Positions 2,864 to 31,312 of a stretch of DNA of 64,000 nt are shown piece by piece (positions within the stretch are counted from its first letter, which is position 1; each line of letters starts with the position of its first letter). The notes below the pieces were generated by a model. That model saw only the letters and a program-made list of their open reading frames with translations. It ran no database searches and was not told the origin of the DNA. The stretch covers positions 12,501 to 76,500 of the forward strand of contig JACPKR010000032.1 of NCBI GenBank assembly GCA_016186945.1, in the 5' to 3' direction. Source of the stretch: Deltaproteobacteria bacterium. GTDB lineage: Bacteria; Bdellovibrionota_B; Oligoflexia; Oligoflexales; Bog-1112. Both the position numbers and the translations under genes were made by a program.

Positions 2864-4705
2864 AAGGAAGGTTTCGTAACGCTTGTTGAGTTTTTTCTTG
2901 AGGACTGCGGTTTTGCTTTCGCCGACAAGTCTGGCTCCTTGGGTGCTAGCTGCATGAGCGATGAGGGCACTCAATAGAATCAGGGAGCCAAAGGTCCCCG
3001 CAGTCGAGATCGCCCCACGGATATTCAACGTGCGGGCTTCCGGAACTTGGCCTCCAAATTTCGTTCGGATGTCTTCTACAGAAGCTCGCTTTGCCATCTC
3101 AGCATCGTAGACTCGCTGTTCTTCGGTAAACCTTGCCGTGTTATCTTGAATTGTCTGCTGCCTTTGCAGCACATCGGCGTCGTACTCTTGTCTTCTTAAC
3201 TGTAAGCCTTGCTGGGCAGTAACAATCTCTCGTCCTAAGCGTTCCAGTTCCGCTGCGGCCTGTCTCCTCGTTTCCTCCGGCAGTTGAAGGTGCGCATCTC
3301 GAAGAGTCGTGGCCTGGGCGCCCTCTGCTTGCATGCCGAGAATTTCGAAAGCTTCATAGGCTTTTCCCAGCTCATCGAGTTGCGGCTGCAATCGGGATAT
3401 TTCGTCTGCGGTTTTCCTCATAGTCCCATAAATCTCTCCTCGTTTCTCGTTTCTTTGCGCCGTTTCTTCTTGTGTCTCGCCACGGGGAACAAACCAGTAC
3501 GATAAGTGCCATTTTGGCGACTCCAAACGTACAGCTTCTGTCTCAAGCCGAAATTTCTCTTCTTTGAGTCGGTTAATAGCATTCATTCGCGTTGTATATT
3601 CGGTATGCATGTGTTCGAACGTCCACTCCATCGGTTCTTTATGTTGTAACGTTGGGGCTGCTTGAAGAAACTGTCTCAAGGCTGTTGTAGCTGCCTGCTT
3701 GTATTGAGCTTCCAACCGGGGCAGGTTCTCCGGGCGCTGTATAAGTTGCCGCTCTCCTTGGATCCGTTGGACTGCTGCTTCCGCTTGTTCGATAGGCTGC
3801 CTGGATACCTCGGGGGGGGCGGGTTGGAGAACTGGTTCCACTGACTGCGTAGGGAGTTCCGCTATAGTCTTATGGTACTTCGCTACCTGTGCTGCCTCCA
3901 TGAAGCTTTTCACTGATACCCCGGCGAGGACGAGTGCTGCGATGCCGAGGACTCCGAAGGCGAGAATCGTTGTAGCTCCGATGTTTTGCTTATCGTTTTG
4001 CTCGCCCTCTTCGCCAACGGTTTTAGCTACTTCTTTAGCTTCTCCTCTTTGCATAGCCTTGATGCAGACGATCTTACCCATTCCCACCTGGTTAGCGACG
4101 ACGGTGTCGGTAGCTTCGTCTCCCTCTTCAGGATTCTCCTGATAGTCTCTAAGGTCTTGCAGGACGCCGTCGCAGAGTTTGACGATTTGTTTCTGTCTTT
4201 CATAGTCTTCGACGAGTTGTTTTTCTCTTTCTGGGTCATTGTTTTCTTTTTGCAGGTAGGGGGCGCTTTCTTTCCAGGGGCCACAGTTGAAAAGTGGGTC
4301 TAGCGCGTGTTCTTCTTCGACGCAGGCCTGAACCGAGACTTGGATTTCACCTGACGGCGGGACGGGGTAGTCGAGCCAGTCCAGGTAACTTATGTCCGGA
4401 CTGTTTTTCTTGGGTTGGCAAGATTGAGGCTCGCCAAGAGTGCAGATGTAAAACTGAACGTACTCTGCTCTTTCGTTTATTTCCACGGCTATACGAAGGG
4501 CTGCATGACCTTCGATATTTGTTTCTGAGAGTTTAATCTTTTGAATTTTCAATTGGCTGGCATCAACAGCAGATATTTCGGGAAGTACCTGGTCAGTAGC
4601 TGCATCGACTGTCTTGGTTGTACTGCCCCTGTGCCTGGCATCCTTTCTTTGAATCGGTAGGCAGGATGTGAGGAGAATGAATAAGGCAATACCGTACGGT
4701 TTCAT
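2849..4705 (-). CDS. Large predicted lipoprotein with coiled coil
   Basis: 618 residues. The start ATG is preceded by AAAGGAG. The N-terminus is a lipoprotein signal (MKPYGIALFILLTSC, lipid Cys at about 15). A Cys-containing region of about 100 residues follows (YICTLGEPQSC, VQACVEEEH, FNCGPW). A hydrophobic segment lies near residues 240-265 (ILAFGVLGIAALVLAGV). A long Gln/Glu/Arg-rich stretch (about 290-530) looks coiled coil. A second hydrophobic segment lies near the C-terminus (LILLSALIAHA), then a basic tail. Function is unknown. The Cys-rich N-terminal part resembles the lipoprotein gene at the right edge of the window. The last few residues are encoded by repeat A2. Confidence 0.7.
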   Translation of the reverse strand: MKPYGIALFILLTSCLPIQRKDARHRGSTTKTVDAATDQVLPEISAVDASQLKIQKIKLSETNIEGHAALRIAVEINERAEYVQFYICTLGEPQSCQPKKNSPDISYLDWLDYPVPPSGEIQVSVQACVEEEHALDPLFNCGPWKESAPYLQKENNDPEREKQLVEDYERQKQIVKLCDGVLQDLRDYQENPEEGDEATDTVVANQVGMGKIVCIKAMQRGEAKEVAKTVGEEGEQNDKQNIGATTILAFGVLGIAALVLAGVSVKSFMEAAQVAKYHKTIAELPTQSVEPVLQPAPPEVSRQPIEQAEAAVQRIQGERQLIQRPENLPRLEAQYKQAATTALRQFLQAAPTLQHKEPMEWTFEHMHTEYTTRMNAINRLKEEKFRLETEAVRLESPKWHLSYWFVPRGETQEETAQRNEKRGEIYGTMRKTADEISRLQPQLDELGKAYEAFEILGMQAEGAQATTLRDAHLQLPEETRRQAAAELERLGREIVTAQQGLQLRRQEYDADVLQRQQTIQDNTARFTEEQRVYDAEMAKRASVEDIRTKFGGQVPEARTLNIRGAISTAGTFGSLILLSALIAHAASTQGARLVGESKTAVLKKKLNKRYETFLRLAP

Positions 4706-25936: not shown

Positions 25937-26917
25937 TCATTTATTGGCACGAAGGTGAGGGCATTCCTGAACAACGCCAGCCTCAATGTTTGCCAACACT
26001 TGGTACGTATGCCGCGCAATGGTATCAAGCATGTTCTGGACGGAAAAAGAGGAGTCTAGCCCATACCGTTTGATGAGGTGCGCATCTGCTGCCATGTCGA
26101 ATTCCTGGTCTTTCAAAATAGACTTAATGATCTCCTCTTGGAGAAGGCTAAAGGGTTGGCTGGAGATGAATAAAAGGGGTCTGTTCTTCAGCAGACTCGC
26201 ATGTTTCTGAAGGAGGTCTCGAATTGTATCTTCCGTTCTCGCTCTTGCCTGCCCTGCTGGGGCGAGGGTATTGAGGATCAAAGGTTTCGGCCATTGAGGG
26301 GGAAGAGCGGCATGTTTGAAAAGGTAAGCCCAGGCTTCCGCTTCCGTTTTGGGAAGGCTCTCGTCTGCGTTCCGTTGTGTCGTCAGCAGCGGGGGCAGGA
26401 GAAAATTTGTCAGAGTTTCTTTTGATTCAAATTTCGGATCAAGAGGTCTATCGCTTCCGAGTGCAAGCAAAGCATCGAACGACAAGCCGGAATTATGAAG
26501 AGTAAGCAGATTTGCTAATCTGTCCGCATTGTTTGTAAAGGTTGAACCTAGAAGAACTACCGTCCCATACTTTCTGCTTGGCGGAACCACAGGATCGAGG
26601 TAACTTGAGTAGGTTTTTAGCAGCTCAGAAACTTTCTTATAATTTCGCCCGTCCTCTTTTATGTGAAGCCTTTCGCTTTTCCGCAGAAGGTGCGTTTGAA
26701 AGCAAGCATTTAATTCGCGAAGATTGTCTCCACATGAGATTTCCAAGTGTTCACGAAGCTCGTCAATTTCACTCCGAAACGCTTGGCAAGACGGACTGGA
26801 CAGTATCTTCCCTATCTGTTCGCCAATTACACTTTTTCCTGCCGAAAAAGCTTTTGTGCCAGACAGAAACAGTACCGCAATAATTAGTTTATTCAGTGGT
26901 TTCAAAGACTTACCCAA
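25937..26917 (-). CDS. Secreted protein of unknown function, YdcF-like pattern
   Basis: 326 residues from a TTG at 26917 without a clear RBS, so the exact start is uncertain. A signal peptide ends near FSAGKS. The body has GTVVLLGSTFTNNADRLANL, DALLALGSDRPLD, a Thr/Asp pair in RARTEDTIRDLL and LLFISSQPFSLLQEEI. This order recalls uncharacterised YdcF/DUF218-like proteins, but I cannot confirm it. It is convergent with the DUF2142 gene and divergent from the microcin-like operon. Confidence 0.65.
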   Translation of the reverse strand: MGKSLKPLNKLIIAVLFLSGTKAFSAGKSVIGEQIGKILSSPSCQAFRSEIDELREHLEISCGDNLRELNACFQTHLLRKSERLHIKEDGRNYKKVSELLKTYSSYLDPVVPPSRKYGTVVLLGSTFTNNADRLANLLTLHNSGLSFDALLALGSDRPLDPKFESKETLTNFLLPPLLTTQRNADESLPKTEAEAWAYLFKHAALPPQWPKPLILNTLAPAGQARARTEDTIRDLLQKHASLLKNRPLLFISSQPFSLLQEEIIKSILKDQEFDMAADAHLIKRYGLDSSFSVQNMLDTIARHTYQVLANIEAGVVQECPHLRANK

Positions 26918-27079
26918 TGATGATAAAGGTGATGAAGCAAATGGGGAAATGAATAGCAGAAAAGGGAAAAGGAGGCCACTGCAATAGTCTTCTTGAAAAA
27001 TAGATTTTTCTTGTTAGTTCCCCATCGATCAGATAAAGAGGTCAGAATCGAAAACCTACAGCTTGGAAAGGAGTCTAAA

Positions 27080-27103
27080 ATGGGCGACTCAATGGCAAAT
27101 TAA
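27080..27103 (+). CDS. mccA: Candidate microcin C-type precursor heptapeptide (MGDSMAN)
   Basis: A seven-codon gene, MGDSMAN followed by TAA, preceded by a strong RBS (AAAGGAG with six bases before the ATG). The E. coli microcin C precursor MccA is also a heptapeptide (MRTGNAN), and known or predicted MccA peptides end in Asn, the residue that MccB converts and joins to AMP. Here the last residue is Asn, the next gene is MccB-like, then an exporter and an acetyltransferase follow, all on the same strand. The match of length, C-terminal Asn, RBS and gene order is what supports the call. The mature compound would be a peptide-adenylate that blocks aspartyl-tRNA synthetase after uptake and processing (known for E. 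coli, inferred here). Confidence 0.85.
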   Translation: MGDSMAN

Positions 27104-27109
27104 AAACAA

Positions 27110-27149
27110 TGGCGGAACCATGGGTTTTTGGAGACCTTTAGCTCCGCCA
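27110..27149 (+). promoter_or_regulatory. Hairpin between precursor gene and mccB
   Basis: TGGCGGA (27110-27116) pairs with TCCGCCA (27143-27149), with a 26-base loop that can form a smaller AACC/GGTT stem. No U-run follows directly. In the E. coli mcc operon a hairpin at the same place limits read-through, so the short mccA mRNA is in excess over mccBCDE. A similar role is inferred here. Confidence 0.6.
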
Positions 27150-27193
27150 ACCTCTTATTACTAAAAAAAACCAATTTTAACGGCCTACACTAC

Positions 27194-28216
27194 ATGAAAT
27201 TCAAGTTAGCACCTTATGTGCGAATAGGGTTCCAAAAAGAAGAACTTCATTTTGGATTCGGTTCGATTCAAAAAATTGTAAAAGAAAAAGAGCTGCAAGA
27301 AGCTTTGATCTCGTCTGCAAAATTCTTGAATTCTTATGAATCTTTGCAGAGTTTGGAATCCCATTTGAAGAATGAAGGATTCCAAGATGAGATTATTAAA
27401 AAGAACGTCCATATTATGGAAAAAAACAGGCTACTGATTTCTGAAAATATTTGGCAAAAAAATGATCGCCATAGTCGAACAAAGCTATTTCTTAATATGT
27501 ATACAGACCAAGTTGATAAAACTCTAAAAGCGATACAATTTAGACATATTGGTATTGTTGGGTGTGGAGGAATCGGTAATATTGTAAGCGTAAATTTGGC
27601 GACCATTGGGGTAACTAAATTCACACTCGTCGACGACGACTCTATTGAAGAAAGCAATCTTTCAAGACAATTTTTATTTAAAGAATCTGATTGTCAAAAA
27701 TCAAAGGCCAAAACTCTTGCGAATGCATTAAAAGAAAGATCTCACAACGTAGACATAGATATTGTTGATTGTGCGATAACTGAAAAAAACGTAAATTTGC
27801 TATCTAATTGCGACTTTATTGTTCTTTCTGGTGACAGCAAAAATTTACCTTTTATCATTAACAAATTTGCAGTTGAGAGGAAGATACCCTTCATCAATGT
27901 TGGATATATTCAAGATATCGCGGTATGGGGCCCTCTTGTGGTGCCAGGAGAAACAGGTTGCCTCGAATGTGGAAAGGGTAATTTTACTGAACAAAGTGAT
28001 CTGCGAATTACAAAGATCAATGGTAACTATCAGGCTCCATCGATTGGTCCGGTTAACATGATTGCCGCCTCCCACGCGTCATTAGATATTATCAAATTCA
28101 TCGGAGGCTTTGGCGAAGTAAAAAGCTTAAATAAACGGGTTGGAATTTGGACTCATAACCTGACAATACAGGAACAGATTTTTTCTAAAAACAGTGAATG
28201 CAGAGTATGCCATTAA
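27194..28216 (+). CDS. mccB: MccB-like adenylating enzyme (ThiF/E1 fold)
   Basis: 340 residues from the ATG at 27194, close to E. coli MccB. The frame also opens at a TTG inside the hairpin loop, which is unlikely. Residues 1-85 look like the small N-terminal peptide-clamp/RRE-like domain of MccB. The ThiF domain has the nucleotide motif G123-C-G-G-I-G128, DDD at 147-149, and SNLSRQ at 154-159, equivalent to the E1 NLxRQ motif. Two Cys pairs, C256/C259 (CLEC) and C336/C339 (CRVC), fit the structural zinc site. The expected reaction uses ATP to activate the C-terminal Asn of MGDSMAN and form an N-P linked adenylate. No obvious RBS. The region is AT-richer than its neighbours. Confidence 0.87.
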   Translation: MKFKLAPYVRIGFQKEELHFGFGSIQKIVKEKELQEALISSAKFLNSYESLQSLESHLKNEGFQDEIIKKNVHIMEKNRLLISENIWQKNDRHSRTKLFLNMYTDQVDKTLKAIQFRHIGIVGCGGIGNIVSVNLATIGVTKFTLVDDDSIEESNLSRQFLFKESDCQKSKAKTLANALKERSHNVDIDIVDCAITEKNVNLLSNCDFIVLSGDSKNLPFIINKFAVERKIPFINVGYIQDIAVWGPLVVPGETGCLECGKGNFTEQSDLRITKINGNYQAPSIGPVNMIAASHASLDIIKFIGGFGEVKSLNKRVGIWTHNLTIQEQIFSKNSECRVCH

Positions 28217-29409
28217 ACTTAAAATTATTACTCATTGGCAATAGCTTGTTTGAAGGAGGCAGATTGTCCGTAGGGGCTATTAGTGTACTGTTTTTGCTTG
28301 ATAAGGGTTTGAGCCTATCTGATTGCGCTTCGTTAAAGTTAGTTCAAGTTGCTACATTCCTAACCTGTGACATCCCCTTGGGACTATTTTTAAACAAGAT
28401 AGGTCCATTAAAATCAATGAAATGGGCCTTAGTCCTAGCAATTACAGGGTGTTTAGGCTATCTGTTATCTCAATCGTTTCTGGGGTTTCTTATTGCCGAG
28501 TTTTTTACTGCCCTATCCATTTCTATTTGGCCTGCCGCATCATCTGCTTATGGCATGGACGCACTGGAAGGTGGAAGCTATTCCAAAAATACATTCTTTC
28601 ACCAAGCCAGTTCAGCCGCCTCTCTTTCTACCTTTCTATTTGGTGTAGCTGGTGGTCTTATTTATATCGTTCAGATACAACTACCTTATTTTCTCATTCT
28701 TATTGCGATGTCTGTCGGTCTCCTGATAACGCTTAAGTTAAAATCAGAGGTAAAATCCGATGTAAAATCAGTTGTTATAAGCCCCAGAAATTTTCATATT
28801 AAACATATAACGAAATATTTCAAATTATGGCCCGTTGTAAGCGTCTTGATTATCATTCAGTTTTTTTCACAAATGCAATTACATTACTGGCAACCTTTAT
28901 TAAGAGATCTCAACTTGAATGGACCTCAATGGATATTTTCAGCAGCGTTTGGATGTATCACGCTTATAATGGCATTTTCATCTTACCTCTATTCCAGGGT
29001 CTGTGAAAAAGAAGCCATGAAGAATATGAGAACAAATCTATTTCTGTTGCTAATTTTGGGGATATCGGCGTCTTTGTTGTTTTACACGTATACGTACGTC
29101 TCGGCTTTTTTACTTATAGGGCTTCTTTATTCAGTGTCGAAGATAGCAAGCACGTCAGTGTCCGTTCAGATCCAAGAAAGCATCGATTCAAATGAGAGAT
29201 TGGCCGTTATTAAAACAGTATCTTGGGCAGCACGATTAGGAATGGTCCTCTCCCTCAGTATTATCTCTATTTTATTAGACAAGTTTTCAGTTAAAGAAAT
29301 ATTCGTCATATTTGGCCTAATAATGATCGTCTTTTCGATGATTTATTTGTTGACAATTAGCCTTGATGTTGGCATCAACCACAAAGAAAATGTAAGGATC
29401 TTTAAATGA
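28198..29409 (+). CDS. mccC: MFS exporter, MccC-like
   Basis: 403 residues with about twelve hydrophobic segments, a 12-TM major facilitator of the size of E. coli MccC, which pumps out microcin C and gives partial self-protection. It overlaps the 3' end of the mccB-like gene by 19 bp and the following gene by 4 bp, so the operon is tightly coupled. Two Met codons (28198, 28207) are possible starts. Function as the microcin exporter is inferred from operon position and size; MFS sequence alone would not show it. Confidence 0.8.
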   Translation: MQSMPLNLKLLLIGNSLFEGGRLSVGAISVLFLLDKGLSLSDCASLKLVQVATFLTCDIPLGLFLNKIGPLKSMKWALVLAITGCLGYLLSQSFLGFLIAEFFTALSISIWPAASSAYGMDALEGGSYSKNTFFHQASSAASLSTFLFGVAGGLIYIVQIQLPYFLILIAMSVGLLITLKLKSEVKSDVKSVVISPRNFHIKHITKYFKLWPVVSVLIIIQFFSQMQLHYWQPLLRDLNLNGPQWIFSAAFGCITLIMAFSSYLYSRVCEKEAMKNMRTNLFLLLILGISASLLFYTYTYVSAFLLIGLLYSVSKIASTSVSVQIQESIDSNERLAVIKTVSWAARLGMVLSLSIISILLDKFSVKEIFVIFGLIMIVFSMIYLLTISLDVGINHKENVRIFK

Positions 29410-29960
29410 AAGTTGTCATTTTATGTATATTGCAGTCTCTATTTTTAACTTCAATAGGTTTTGGATCTGAAATGTATATTGAACTCAGAAACTTCGAGGA
29501 ACGCGACTTGCCGGATTTTTATGAATGGGCGTCTGATCCCGATGTGACCCAGTTTTTAATGTGGGATAATTATAAAAACAAAGAAAGCGCCAGGGAATTT
29601 TTGGTTAGGGTAGCGATACCTCATCCATGGTTGAAGGCAATCGTTTGTGACGGAAAAGTGGTTGGTTCTATCTCCTTAGAACCAGGAAAAGGTTCTAAAC
29701 AAAAAGTAGCTGAAGTCGGTTATGTTATTGCGAAGAAATATTGGAGTCGGGGTATTGGGACAGCTGCTCTCAAGGCAGCATTAAAAACTGGTTTTGACGA
29801 TTTAGATCTTGTCAGAATCGAAGCGTACGTGGATCCATGCAATCTGGCATCCATCAAAGTTATTGAAAAAAGTGGTATGACGCGGGAAGGATACCTTAGA
29901 AAGTGCATTCTGCAAAAAGGAGTTATAAAAGACAGATTGCTCTACGCTTTGACCCGTTAG
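29406..29960 (+). CDS. GNAT acetyltransferase, probable microcin self-immunity (MccE-CTD-like)
   Basis: 184 residues. The GNAT core includes LRNFEERDLPDFYEWASDPD, the acetyl-CoA loop KYWSRGIGTAAL and the C-terminal VIEKSGMTREGYLRK, typical of RimJ/RimL-type enzymes. Segments such as FLMWDNY, IPHPWLKAI and GYVIAKKYWSRGI look close to plant GNAT proteins. In E. coli the acetyltransferase half of MccE inactivates processed microcin C by acetylating the aminoacyl part, so immunity is the likely role. The ATGA overlap with mccC favours the start at 29406, yet that adds a hydrophobic leader ending GFGSE. An internal ATG at 29472 gives a leaderless cytosolic enzyme, which is what immunity needs. Confidence 0.8.
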   Translation: MKVVILCILQSLFLTSIGFGSEMYIELRNFEERDLPDFYEWASDPDVTQFLMWDNYKNKESAREFLVRVAIPHPWLKAIVCDGKVVGSISLEPGKGSKQKVAEVGYVIAKKYWSRGIGTAALKAALKTGFDDLDLVRIEAYVDPCNLASIKVIEKSGMTREGYLRKCILQKGVIKDRLLYALTR

Positions 29961-29986: not shown

Positions 29987-31312
29987 TTATCCAGTTTTTT
30001 GCAAGTTCTGAATGAGACCGAGAGTGGTACGGACTTCATGGTATGAGACGGTCTTTTCTTTGAAGTGAGCGAGAAGGATTTCCTGCTCTTCTTTGCCCAC
30101 CTGAAGCTGTTCGAAGATGTTGCGAATATGAAGTTTCATGTGTCCTTTTTGAATTCCGGATGTGATGAGCGAATTGACTGCGGAAAAATTCTGCGACAAT
30201 CCCACTGACGCTACGATCGCCATCAATTCCTTGGCGGAAGGGTTCCGTAAAAGTTCCATAGATATCTGCACAAGTGGATGGTTGCGGGTTAGGCCGCCGA
30301 TTGTTCCAAGAGCGAGTGGTATTTCAAGTTCGTAATGAAACTCACGATTTTCCACAAAAACCGTTGTTAATGCTTGGTAGCTCCCTTTCCTGCAGGCGTA
30401 TGCATGGCCACAGGCTTCCACACTGCGGAAGTCATTCCCCGTTGCCAGGATGACGGCATCAATGCCGTTAAAGATACCTTTGTTATGAGTTACGGCACGG
30501 TCTGGGGTGATATTGGCAATCTTGACAGCGAAATTAAATTTCTCGCAGTACTCGTGCTCAGTAAGGGTAGGGTCGAATCTGAGTTCTTCGATGGGACAGC
30601 TGATTTTCGCTTTCACGAGACACTCGGGGGTATAGTTTGACAAAATCGCCATGACGATTTGGATATCGTGCCCCCCTTGGTCAAATTTGGGCCAAGTGCT
30701 TGCTTTTTCCTTAAATTTGAGCGCATAGGTTTCCAAGAGTGAGTTTATAAAATTGGCGCCCATTGCATCACACGTGTCGACCTCGAATCGAATTTGGTAG
30801 TAATGCTCGATCTTAGCCGATGTGTCGACCAGATGAATCCGACGGATACCTCCCCCTCGACGTTCCATCTTTTCTGTGAGGGGGCTCATCTCCCCAACAA
30901 TAGCATTTCTGCTTGTCTCAAAAAATTCAGACAACATTGCGAATGGTGCTGAGGACTTCAAATGCACGTGGCCTACTTTCAATGTGTTGACAATCTCAGC
31001 TTGGAAGCCCCCTCGCTCGGCCCATAGCTTCGCACCCTTTGAAGCTGCCGCGACGACGGAACTTTCCTCGGTGACCATCGGTACGTGATAAACCTGTCCG
31101 TTGATTAGAAAGTTAGGTGCAATACTGTACGGAAGATAAAAACTCGATAGAACATTCTCGCTTATACGATCAATCGACGATTGGATCGTGTCATCCTCAT
31201 GTCTGAACTTCCGGAGACGCTCCTTGAGTTCATCCGAAAGGCTAGTGTCGCGTGACAGGGTTTCGACTTTTTCCTGCCAACTAAGCTTCGAAAAATTTCT
31301 AAGAATGTTCAT
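29987..31312 (-). CDS. mvaA: Hydroxymethylglutaryl-CoA reductase, class II
   Basis: 441 residues, the length of class II (bacterial) HMG-CoA reductases. Visible family segments are ENVLSSFYLPYSIAPNFL with the Glu-containing TEESSVVAAASKGAKLW, MGANFIN after DTCDA, the Lys-containing AVTHNKGIFNGIDAV, GTIGGLTRNHP and the C-terminal His in GHMKLH. It makes mevalonate from HMG-CoA (or the reverse in catabolic forms). It is divergent from a terpene synthase gene across a 173-bp region, which suggests linked isoprenoid supply. It converges on the GNAT gene with a 26-bp gap. Confidence 0.93.
   Translation of the reverse strand: MNILRNFSKLSWQEKVETLSRDTSLSDELKERLRKFRHEDDTIQSSIDRISENVLSSFYLPYSIAPNFLINGQVYHVPMVTEESSVVAAASKGAKLWAERGGFQAEIVNTLKVGHVHLKSSAPFAMLSEFFETSRNAIVGEMSPLTEKMERRGGGIRRIHLVDTSAKIEHYYQIRFEVDTCDAMGANFINSLLETYALKFKEKASTWPKFDQGGHDIQIVMAILSNYTPECLVKAKISCPIEELRFDPTLTEHEYCEKFNFAVKIANITPDRAVTHNKGIFNGIDAVILATGNDFRSVEACGHAYACRKGSYQALTTVFVENREFHYELEIPLALGTIGGLTRNHPLVQISMELLRNPSAKELMAIVASVGLSQNFSAVNSLITSGIQKGHMKLHIRNIFEQLQVGKEEQEILLAHFKEKTVSYHEVRTTLGLIQNLQKTG

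Follow-up and report, generated by a model that had tools for sequence, protein, structure and literature searches.

The window, that is, the whole stretch of 64 kb analyzed here, carries a compact block of four genes on its forward strand: a seven-codon minigene, a gene for a ThiF-family enzyme, a gene for an MFS exporter and a gene for a GNAT acetyltransferase. The gene anatomy was observed directly and, together with the two flanking genes, is as follows.

25937-26917, reverse strand: unknown gene, upstream neighbor of the operon
27067..27073, forward strand: Shine-Dalgarno sequence AAAGGAG of mccA, read from the sequence, with a spacer of 6 nt to the ATG
27080..27103, forward strand: mccA minigene, MGDSMAN plus TAA, identified from the sequence and from its equal position and form in related loci
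27110..27149, forward strand: hairpin between mccA and mccB, TGGCGGA...TCCGCCA (-18 kcal/mol, z -1.8)
27194..28216, forward strand: mccB, peptide-AMP ligase with an N-terminal recognition domain, a ThiF-like adenylation domain and four Cys (Pfam ThiF 2e-43, PDB MccB 3e-51, alignment, tree, model)
28198..29409, forward strand: mccC, MFS exporter of 403 aa (Pfam MFS_1 5e-12, homology to the MFS proteins of other mcc loci)
29406..29960, forward strand: GNAT acetyltransferase with a hydrophobic stretch at residues 1-22 and a probable role in immunity (Pfam Acetyltransf_3 5e-28, mcc-linked relatives, structural match)
29987-31312, reverse strand: HMG-CoA reductase of the degradative type, downstream neighbor of the operon

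The original prediction had confined the block to 27080-29960; the genes do lie there, but the start has to be moved, as the ribosome site begins at 27067. Its other statements on the layout agree with our observations. The genes are tightly packed, with overlaps of 19 bp between mccB and the MFS gene and of 4 bp between the MFS and GNAT genes, and a scan of the neighboring genes found no mccD, MccE decarboxylase domain or mccF beside the operon. With the ATG that corresponds to the E. coli MccB start, mccB encodes 340 aa; a TTG farther upstream would give a frame of 362 aa. Moreover, two other mcc loci are arranged in this way (mccA-mccB-MFS-GNAT), one from a Chlamydiales MAG (L010) and one from a Fimbriimonadia MAG (L025).

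The codons of mccA read ATG GGC GAC TCA ATG GCA AAT TAA. In a search of both strands of the 64 kb for ATG-start mini-ORFs of 5-11 codons that end in Asn and have a Shine-Dalgarno match of at least 5 bases, mccA was the sole hit. Asn-ending heptapeptide genes also stand directly before mccB in related loci from many phyla, including most loci of the heptapeptide-MccB clade described below, and a clear ribosome site precedes most of them. These peptides are MNTITTN (L010), MNTVPGN (L011), MNTTPRN (L017), MNSTARN (L018), METEIGN (L019), MNSVVRN (L023), MDDLIRN (L025), MLKLGGN (L027) and MISVSSN (L031), and the known peptides of E. coli (MRTGNAN) and H. pylori (MKLSYRN) were recovered in the equal position. 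In the Nocardiopsis loci, an Asn-ending mini-ORF was absent under the mini-ORF filter used. In the mccA family, length and the terminal Asn are kept while the remaining sequence is free (PMC6495379), and the predicted heptapeptides of the window and its relatives match this rule. Collectively, the seven-codon gene with a strong ribosome site and a final Asn, as originally predicted, is read directly from the DNA, and its frame, on whose conservation the prediction had been staked, recurs in related loci.

A distance of 90 bp separates mccA from mccB, and a hairpin lies between the two genes in the window as well as in 15 of the 16 other mcc loci folded. In E. coli, this hairpin is a terminator that keeps the mccA transcript in excess (PMC6495379). 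The window hairpin is weakly above shuffled sequences and has no T run, and the ribosome site of mccB is poor. Promoter and terminator scans of the operon block gave matches at or below chance level.

The best solved-structure match of the window enzyme is E. coli MccB (3e-51), followed by ubiquitin E1 enzymes (1e-13), and none of the NCBIfam ThiF/MoeB models comes near its curated cut-off. The identity to E. coli MccB is 34%, and the four Cys (C256, C259, C336 and C339) are kept. The predicted model, built from 25 relatives, has a mean pLDDT of 94 and TM scores of 0.90 to E. coli MccB (MccA-bound structures included), 0.69 to PaaA and about 0.6 to MoeB/ThiF. Since the MccB match covers the whole chain, it includes the N-terminal peptide-recognition domain, which MoeB and ThiF lack. 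Furthermore, in a tree of 75 proteins with outgroups and SH-aLRT support, the window enzyme lies within a 46-row clade (SH-aLRT 99) together with E. coli MccB and the heptapeptide loci, away from all outgroups; its nearest rows are the Chlamydiales MAG (93) and then the Fimbriimonadia MAG (95). Collectively, the ThiF protein of the window is MccB by sequence, predicted fold and phylogeny. The MccB-like enzyme with two Cys pairs put forward originally is thereby confirmed, and the grouping with MoeB, ThiF or UBA enzymes that was to count against it was not seen.

The MFS protein is nearly equal in length to E. coli MccC (404 aa), in line with the transporter of MccC size described at the outset, and shares 22% identity with it. 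It is more similar to the exporter of the Chlamydiales mcc locus (33% identity, 2e-53) and to the one from a locus of the same order (29%). Exporters of this family diverge fast, and the position in the operon is better evidence for mccC than similarity. The predicted MFS exporter (28198-29409) thus supplies the dedicated exporter gene of an mcc operon.

Taken together, these genes very probably make up a complete microcin C-type operon in compact form, mccABC plus a GNAT gene, whose predicted product is formyl-MGDSMAN-AMP. The chemistry, export and target proposed here are modeled on the E. coli family, and the role of the GNAT is proposed more cautiously. The ribosome would translate the minigene to formyl-MGDSMAN, which MccB would bind and activate at the C-terminal Asn with one ATP, via a succinimide; AMP from a second ATP would then be joined to the peptide by MccB through a stable P-N bond. 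Export of the peptide-adenylate would fall to the MFS protein. After uptake by a sensitive neighbor, peptidases would shorten the compound to an aspartamide-adenylate, which would block aspartyl-tRNA synthetase, and the GNAT may acetylate the free amino group of the trimmed product inside the producer and so confer immunity. A two-ATP adenylation via a succinimide, export, uptake, trimming and the block of AspRS are the known mechanism of the McC family (PMC6495379, PMC7157772, PMC12250964). Because no decoration genes lie nearby, the product is expected to be undecorated, with a computed [M+H]+ of 1082.31; the same computation for the E. coli compound gives 1120.40, which fits the name McC1120.

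Could the enzyme instead be a MoeB/ThiF/E1-like protein that serves sulfur or cofactor metabolism, with the heptapeptide a chance frame? The match to the ThiF family is generic, and the window genome encodes a second ThiF-family protein (L002). However, sequence, fold and tree all place the enzyme closest to MccB, and the minigene is unique in the 64 kb and recurs in relatives. A MoeB/ThiF identity was rejected on these three lines of comparison, and we regard this explanation as having a negligible chance of being right. It is also improbable that MccB attaches a nucleotide other than AMP (e.g., CMP), or that the compound serves as a signal or as a weapon against a different target. Cytidylate versions of the family do exist (PMC9239234, PMC12250964), but the known cytidylating MccBs bear an extra carboxymethyltransferase domain (PMC9239234), whereas the window MccB, at 340 aa, is without that domain and sits in the short-peptide clade.

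The function of the GNAT has to be weighed separately. In the GNAT tree, the window protein forms a group (87/78) with its counterparts from the Chlamydiales MAG and a Bdellovibrionaceae MAG. The MccE clade (99/96) is separate from this group and holds the E. coli, Pantoea, Brenneria and Fimbriimonadia GNATs; the window protein is 19% identical to E. coli MccE. Two GNAT lineages thus seem to have been recruited to mcc clusters. W53, F65 and S149 of the window GNAT align with W453, F466 and S553 of MccE, although the W/F pair is perhaps general to RimL-like GNATs, and the position of E572, the proposed general base of MccE, is Ile. In MccE, W453 and F466 stack on the adenine (PMC4964394); this review prints residue 453 as T453, whereas the E. 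coli sequence has W453. Structural comparison gave a Z of 22.7 for 3fbu, an uncharacterized GNAT and the best match, 20.1 for MccE and 20.0 for RimL, and with such similar values the fold alone does not decide the role.

Alternatively, the GNAT could be a tailoring enzyme or an unrelated RimL-like enzyme that acetylates, for example, the peptide or a ribosomal protein. The operon would still make the peptide-adenylate, and the producer would be protected by genes outside the block, for instance one for an S66 peptidase or a HIT hydrolase. The genome carries one S66 peptidase and one HIT protein, families that include the known McC immunity enzymes MccF and MccH/HinT (PMC7157772), and the position outside the MccE clade and the uncharacterized nearest structure point the same way. 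Against this explanation, which we consider unlikely, the close relatives of the window GNAT (46% identity) were found only beside MccB genes, namely, in the Chlamydiales and Bdellovibrionaceae (L059) MAGs. This linkage was observed directly; it spans two phyla other than that of the window and both MccB classes and brings the lineage to three mcc-like clusters, whereas the nearest other GNATs in the searched relatives of the window's phylum are 39% identical or less. GNAT-based McC immunity is known for MccE and RimL (PMC7157772, PMC4964394), and RimL also shows MccE activity (PMC4964394). Given that activity and the mcc linkage, with the fold indecisive, immunity is the likeliest role and a probable one. 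The original proposal that the GNAT could replace the C-terminal domain of MccE stays plausible, but it would do so as a member of another lineage.

Residues 1-22 of the GNAT (29406-29471) are hydrophobic, signal-like and unmodeled in the predicted structure, and the candidate starts are the ATG at 29406 and an inner ATG at 29472. If translated, such an N-terminus is ill-suited to a cytosolic enzyme. A GNAT in the periplasm would be cut off from acetyl-CoA. The hydrophobic stretch may reflect a wrongly assigned start codon, or it may tether the protein to the membrane. The Bdellovibrionaceae GNAT (3127-3220) has a similar hydrophobic extension that can be aligned with that of the window, and the Chlamydiales GNAT has none. 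A broader proposal, which we hold only tentatively and consider somewhat doubtful, is that the window GNAT represents a second, independent lineage of McC immunity acetyltransferases, common to the heptapeptide clusters of the window and the Chlamydiales MAG and to the repeat-precursor cluster of the Bdellovibrionaceae MAG, with the hydrophobic N-terminus possibly serving as a membrane anchor.

The operon differs in composition from its surroundings, as the original prediction had noted in calling the block AT-richer. The GC3 values of its three long genes are 0.32, 0.38 and 0.37, compared with 0.44-0.59 in 21 other window genes, which makes horizontal transfer likely as judged from base composition. 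Among 58 genomes of the phylum, a full-length MccB at comparable similarity is present only in the window genome and in one other of its order, and this patchiness fits transfer. A scan of flanking genes brought up no mobile-element gene, the nearest tRNA is distant, at 47987, and the other neighbors are sugar, ABC-transporter and lipid genes. A search of 40 other genomes from the order found no relatives of the upstream gene (25937-26917). The window HMG-CoA reductase is 35-42% identical to the copies of relatives, and the genome has a second copy at G000:C53:24062-25093. With one flank lacking relatives and the other divergent, an empty site could not be defined. The bacterium is uncultured and known only from an incomplete assembly of 76 contigs (91% complete).

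A second class of clusters emerged from the comparison. In the Bdellovibrionaceae MAG (CANEZP010000003.1), an ORF at 392-580 encodes MKIQVLKKQMTKKVIQASAKPSAVRN(AGPVRN)x6, in which six-residue repeats follow in tandem and Asn is last. Similarly, on a 3.8-Mb contig from the same phylum (L122; G179:C1), an ORF at 3584-3709 encodes MLIKVKATATKKTTKRNAIKVRNAIKVRNAIRVRNAIRVRN, with the repeats AIKVRN/AIRVRN and again a final Asn. The repeat units of both precursors end in V-R-N. In both genomes, the precursor is followed by an MFS gene, MccB and a TldD-like protease (assigned by weak Pfam matches); the layout is conserved, and the two MccB proteins are 50% identical. A TldD/E protease processes the long Yersinia precursor, according to the title of a paper cited in PMC12250964. 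From their sequences, the repeat ORFs may be multi-core microcin C precursors, for which a literature search found no report, and these clusters are possibly a more novel lead than the window operon. The same phylum also has a heptapeptide mcc operon (L018/L120; JACTMU010000079.1) with the peptide MNSTARN, an MccB of 40% identity and an MFS of 30%, so both classes of mcc cluster are present there.

Minimal mccABC operons have been published from diverse bacteria, and a precursor, an adenylating enzyme and a pump suffice (PMC6495379, PMC9239234). The window operon shows the features that published rules name, namely, a C-terminal Asn, seven residues, a strong Shine-Dalgarno sequence, a recognition domain and a nearby exporter. 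A partial literature search found no microcin C operon reported from Bdellovibrio-like bacteria. The window operon would add a Trojan-horse antibiotic sequence, ready for synthesis, from a lineage for which none was found reported; it also shows that an identical four-gene arrangement occurs in distant phyla and points to acetyltransferases of a lineage separate from MccE as the likely means of self-protection.

Among the closest counterparts is the locus of the Chlamydiales MAG (JAJACO010000197.1), which shares the four-gene order, with identities of 45% for MccB, 33% for the MFS and 46% for the GNAT, and differs in its peptide (MNTITTN) and in the GNAT N-terminus, which is not hydrophobic. 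A Candidatus Anoxychlamydiales MAG (JAAKFW010000147.1; METEIGN, MccB 39%) holds a second mcc locus of the Chlamydiota. A MAG of the window's own order from Lake Pavin (JAPLFY010000094.1; L003/L023) likewise has a heptapeptide (MNSVVRN), MccB (39%) and MFS (29%), but no GNAT was found in the cluster, and its MccB is nearer the Nocardiopsis/Nocardioides branch. The Helicobacter and Borrelia plasmid operons consist of a heptapeptide (MKLSYRN and MRGKTLN), MccB and MFS only; they have no GNAT, and their MccB proteins, about 30% identical to that of the window, belong to another branch. With the E. coli mccABCDE/mccF system (MRTGNAN), the window shares the Asn-ending heptapeptide, the strong Shine-Dalgarno sequence, the hairpin before mccB, MccB, the MFS and a likely GNAT-based immunity. 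In contrast, it has no mccD, MccE decarboxylase domain or mccF, its peptide is MGDSMAN, its MccB and exporter are 34% and 22% identical to their counterparts, and its GNAT stands alone and is of another lineage. Collectively, the window operon has a new peptide, MGDSMAN, and a GNAT from a lineage outside the MccE clade, while the operon type itself is known.
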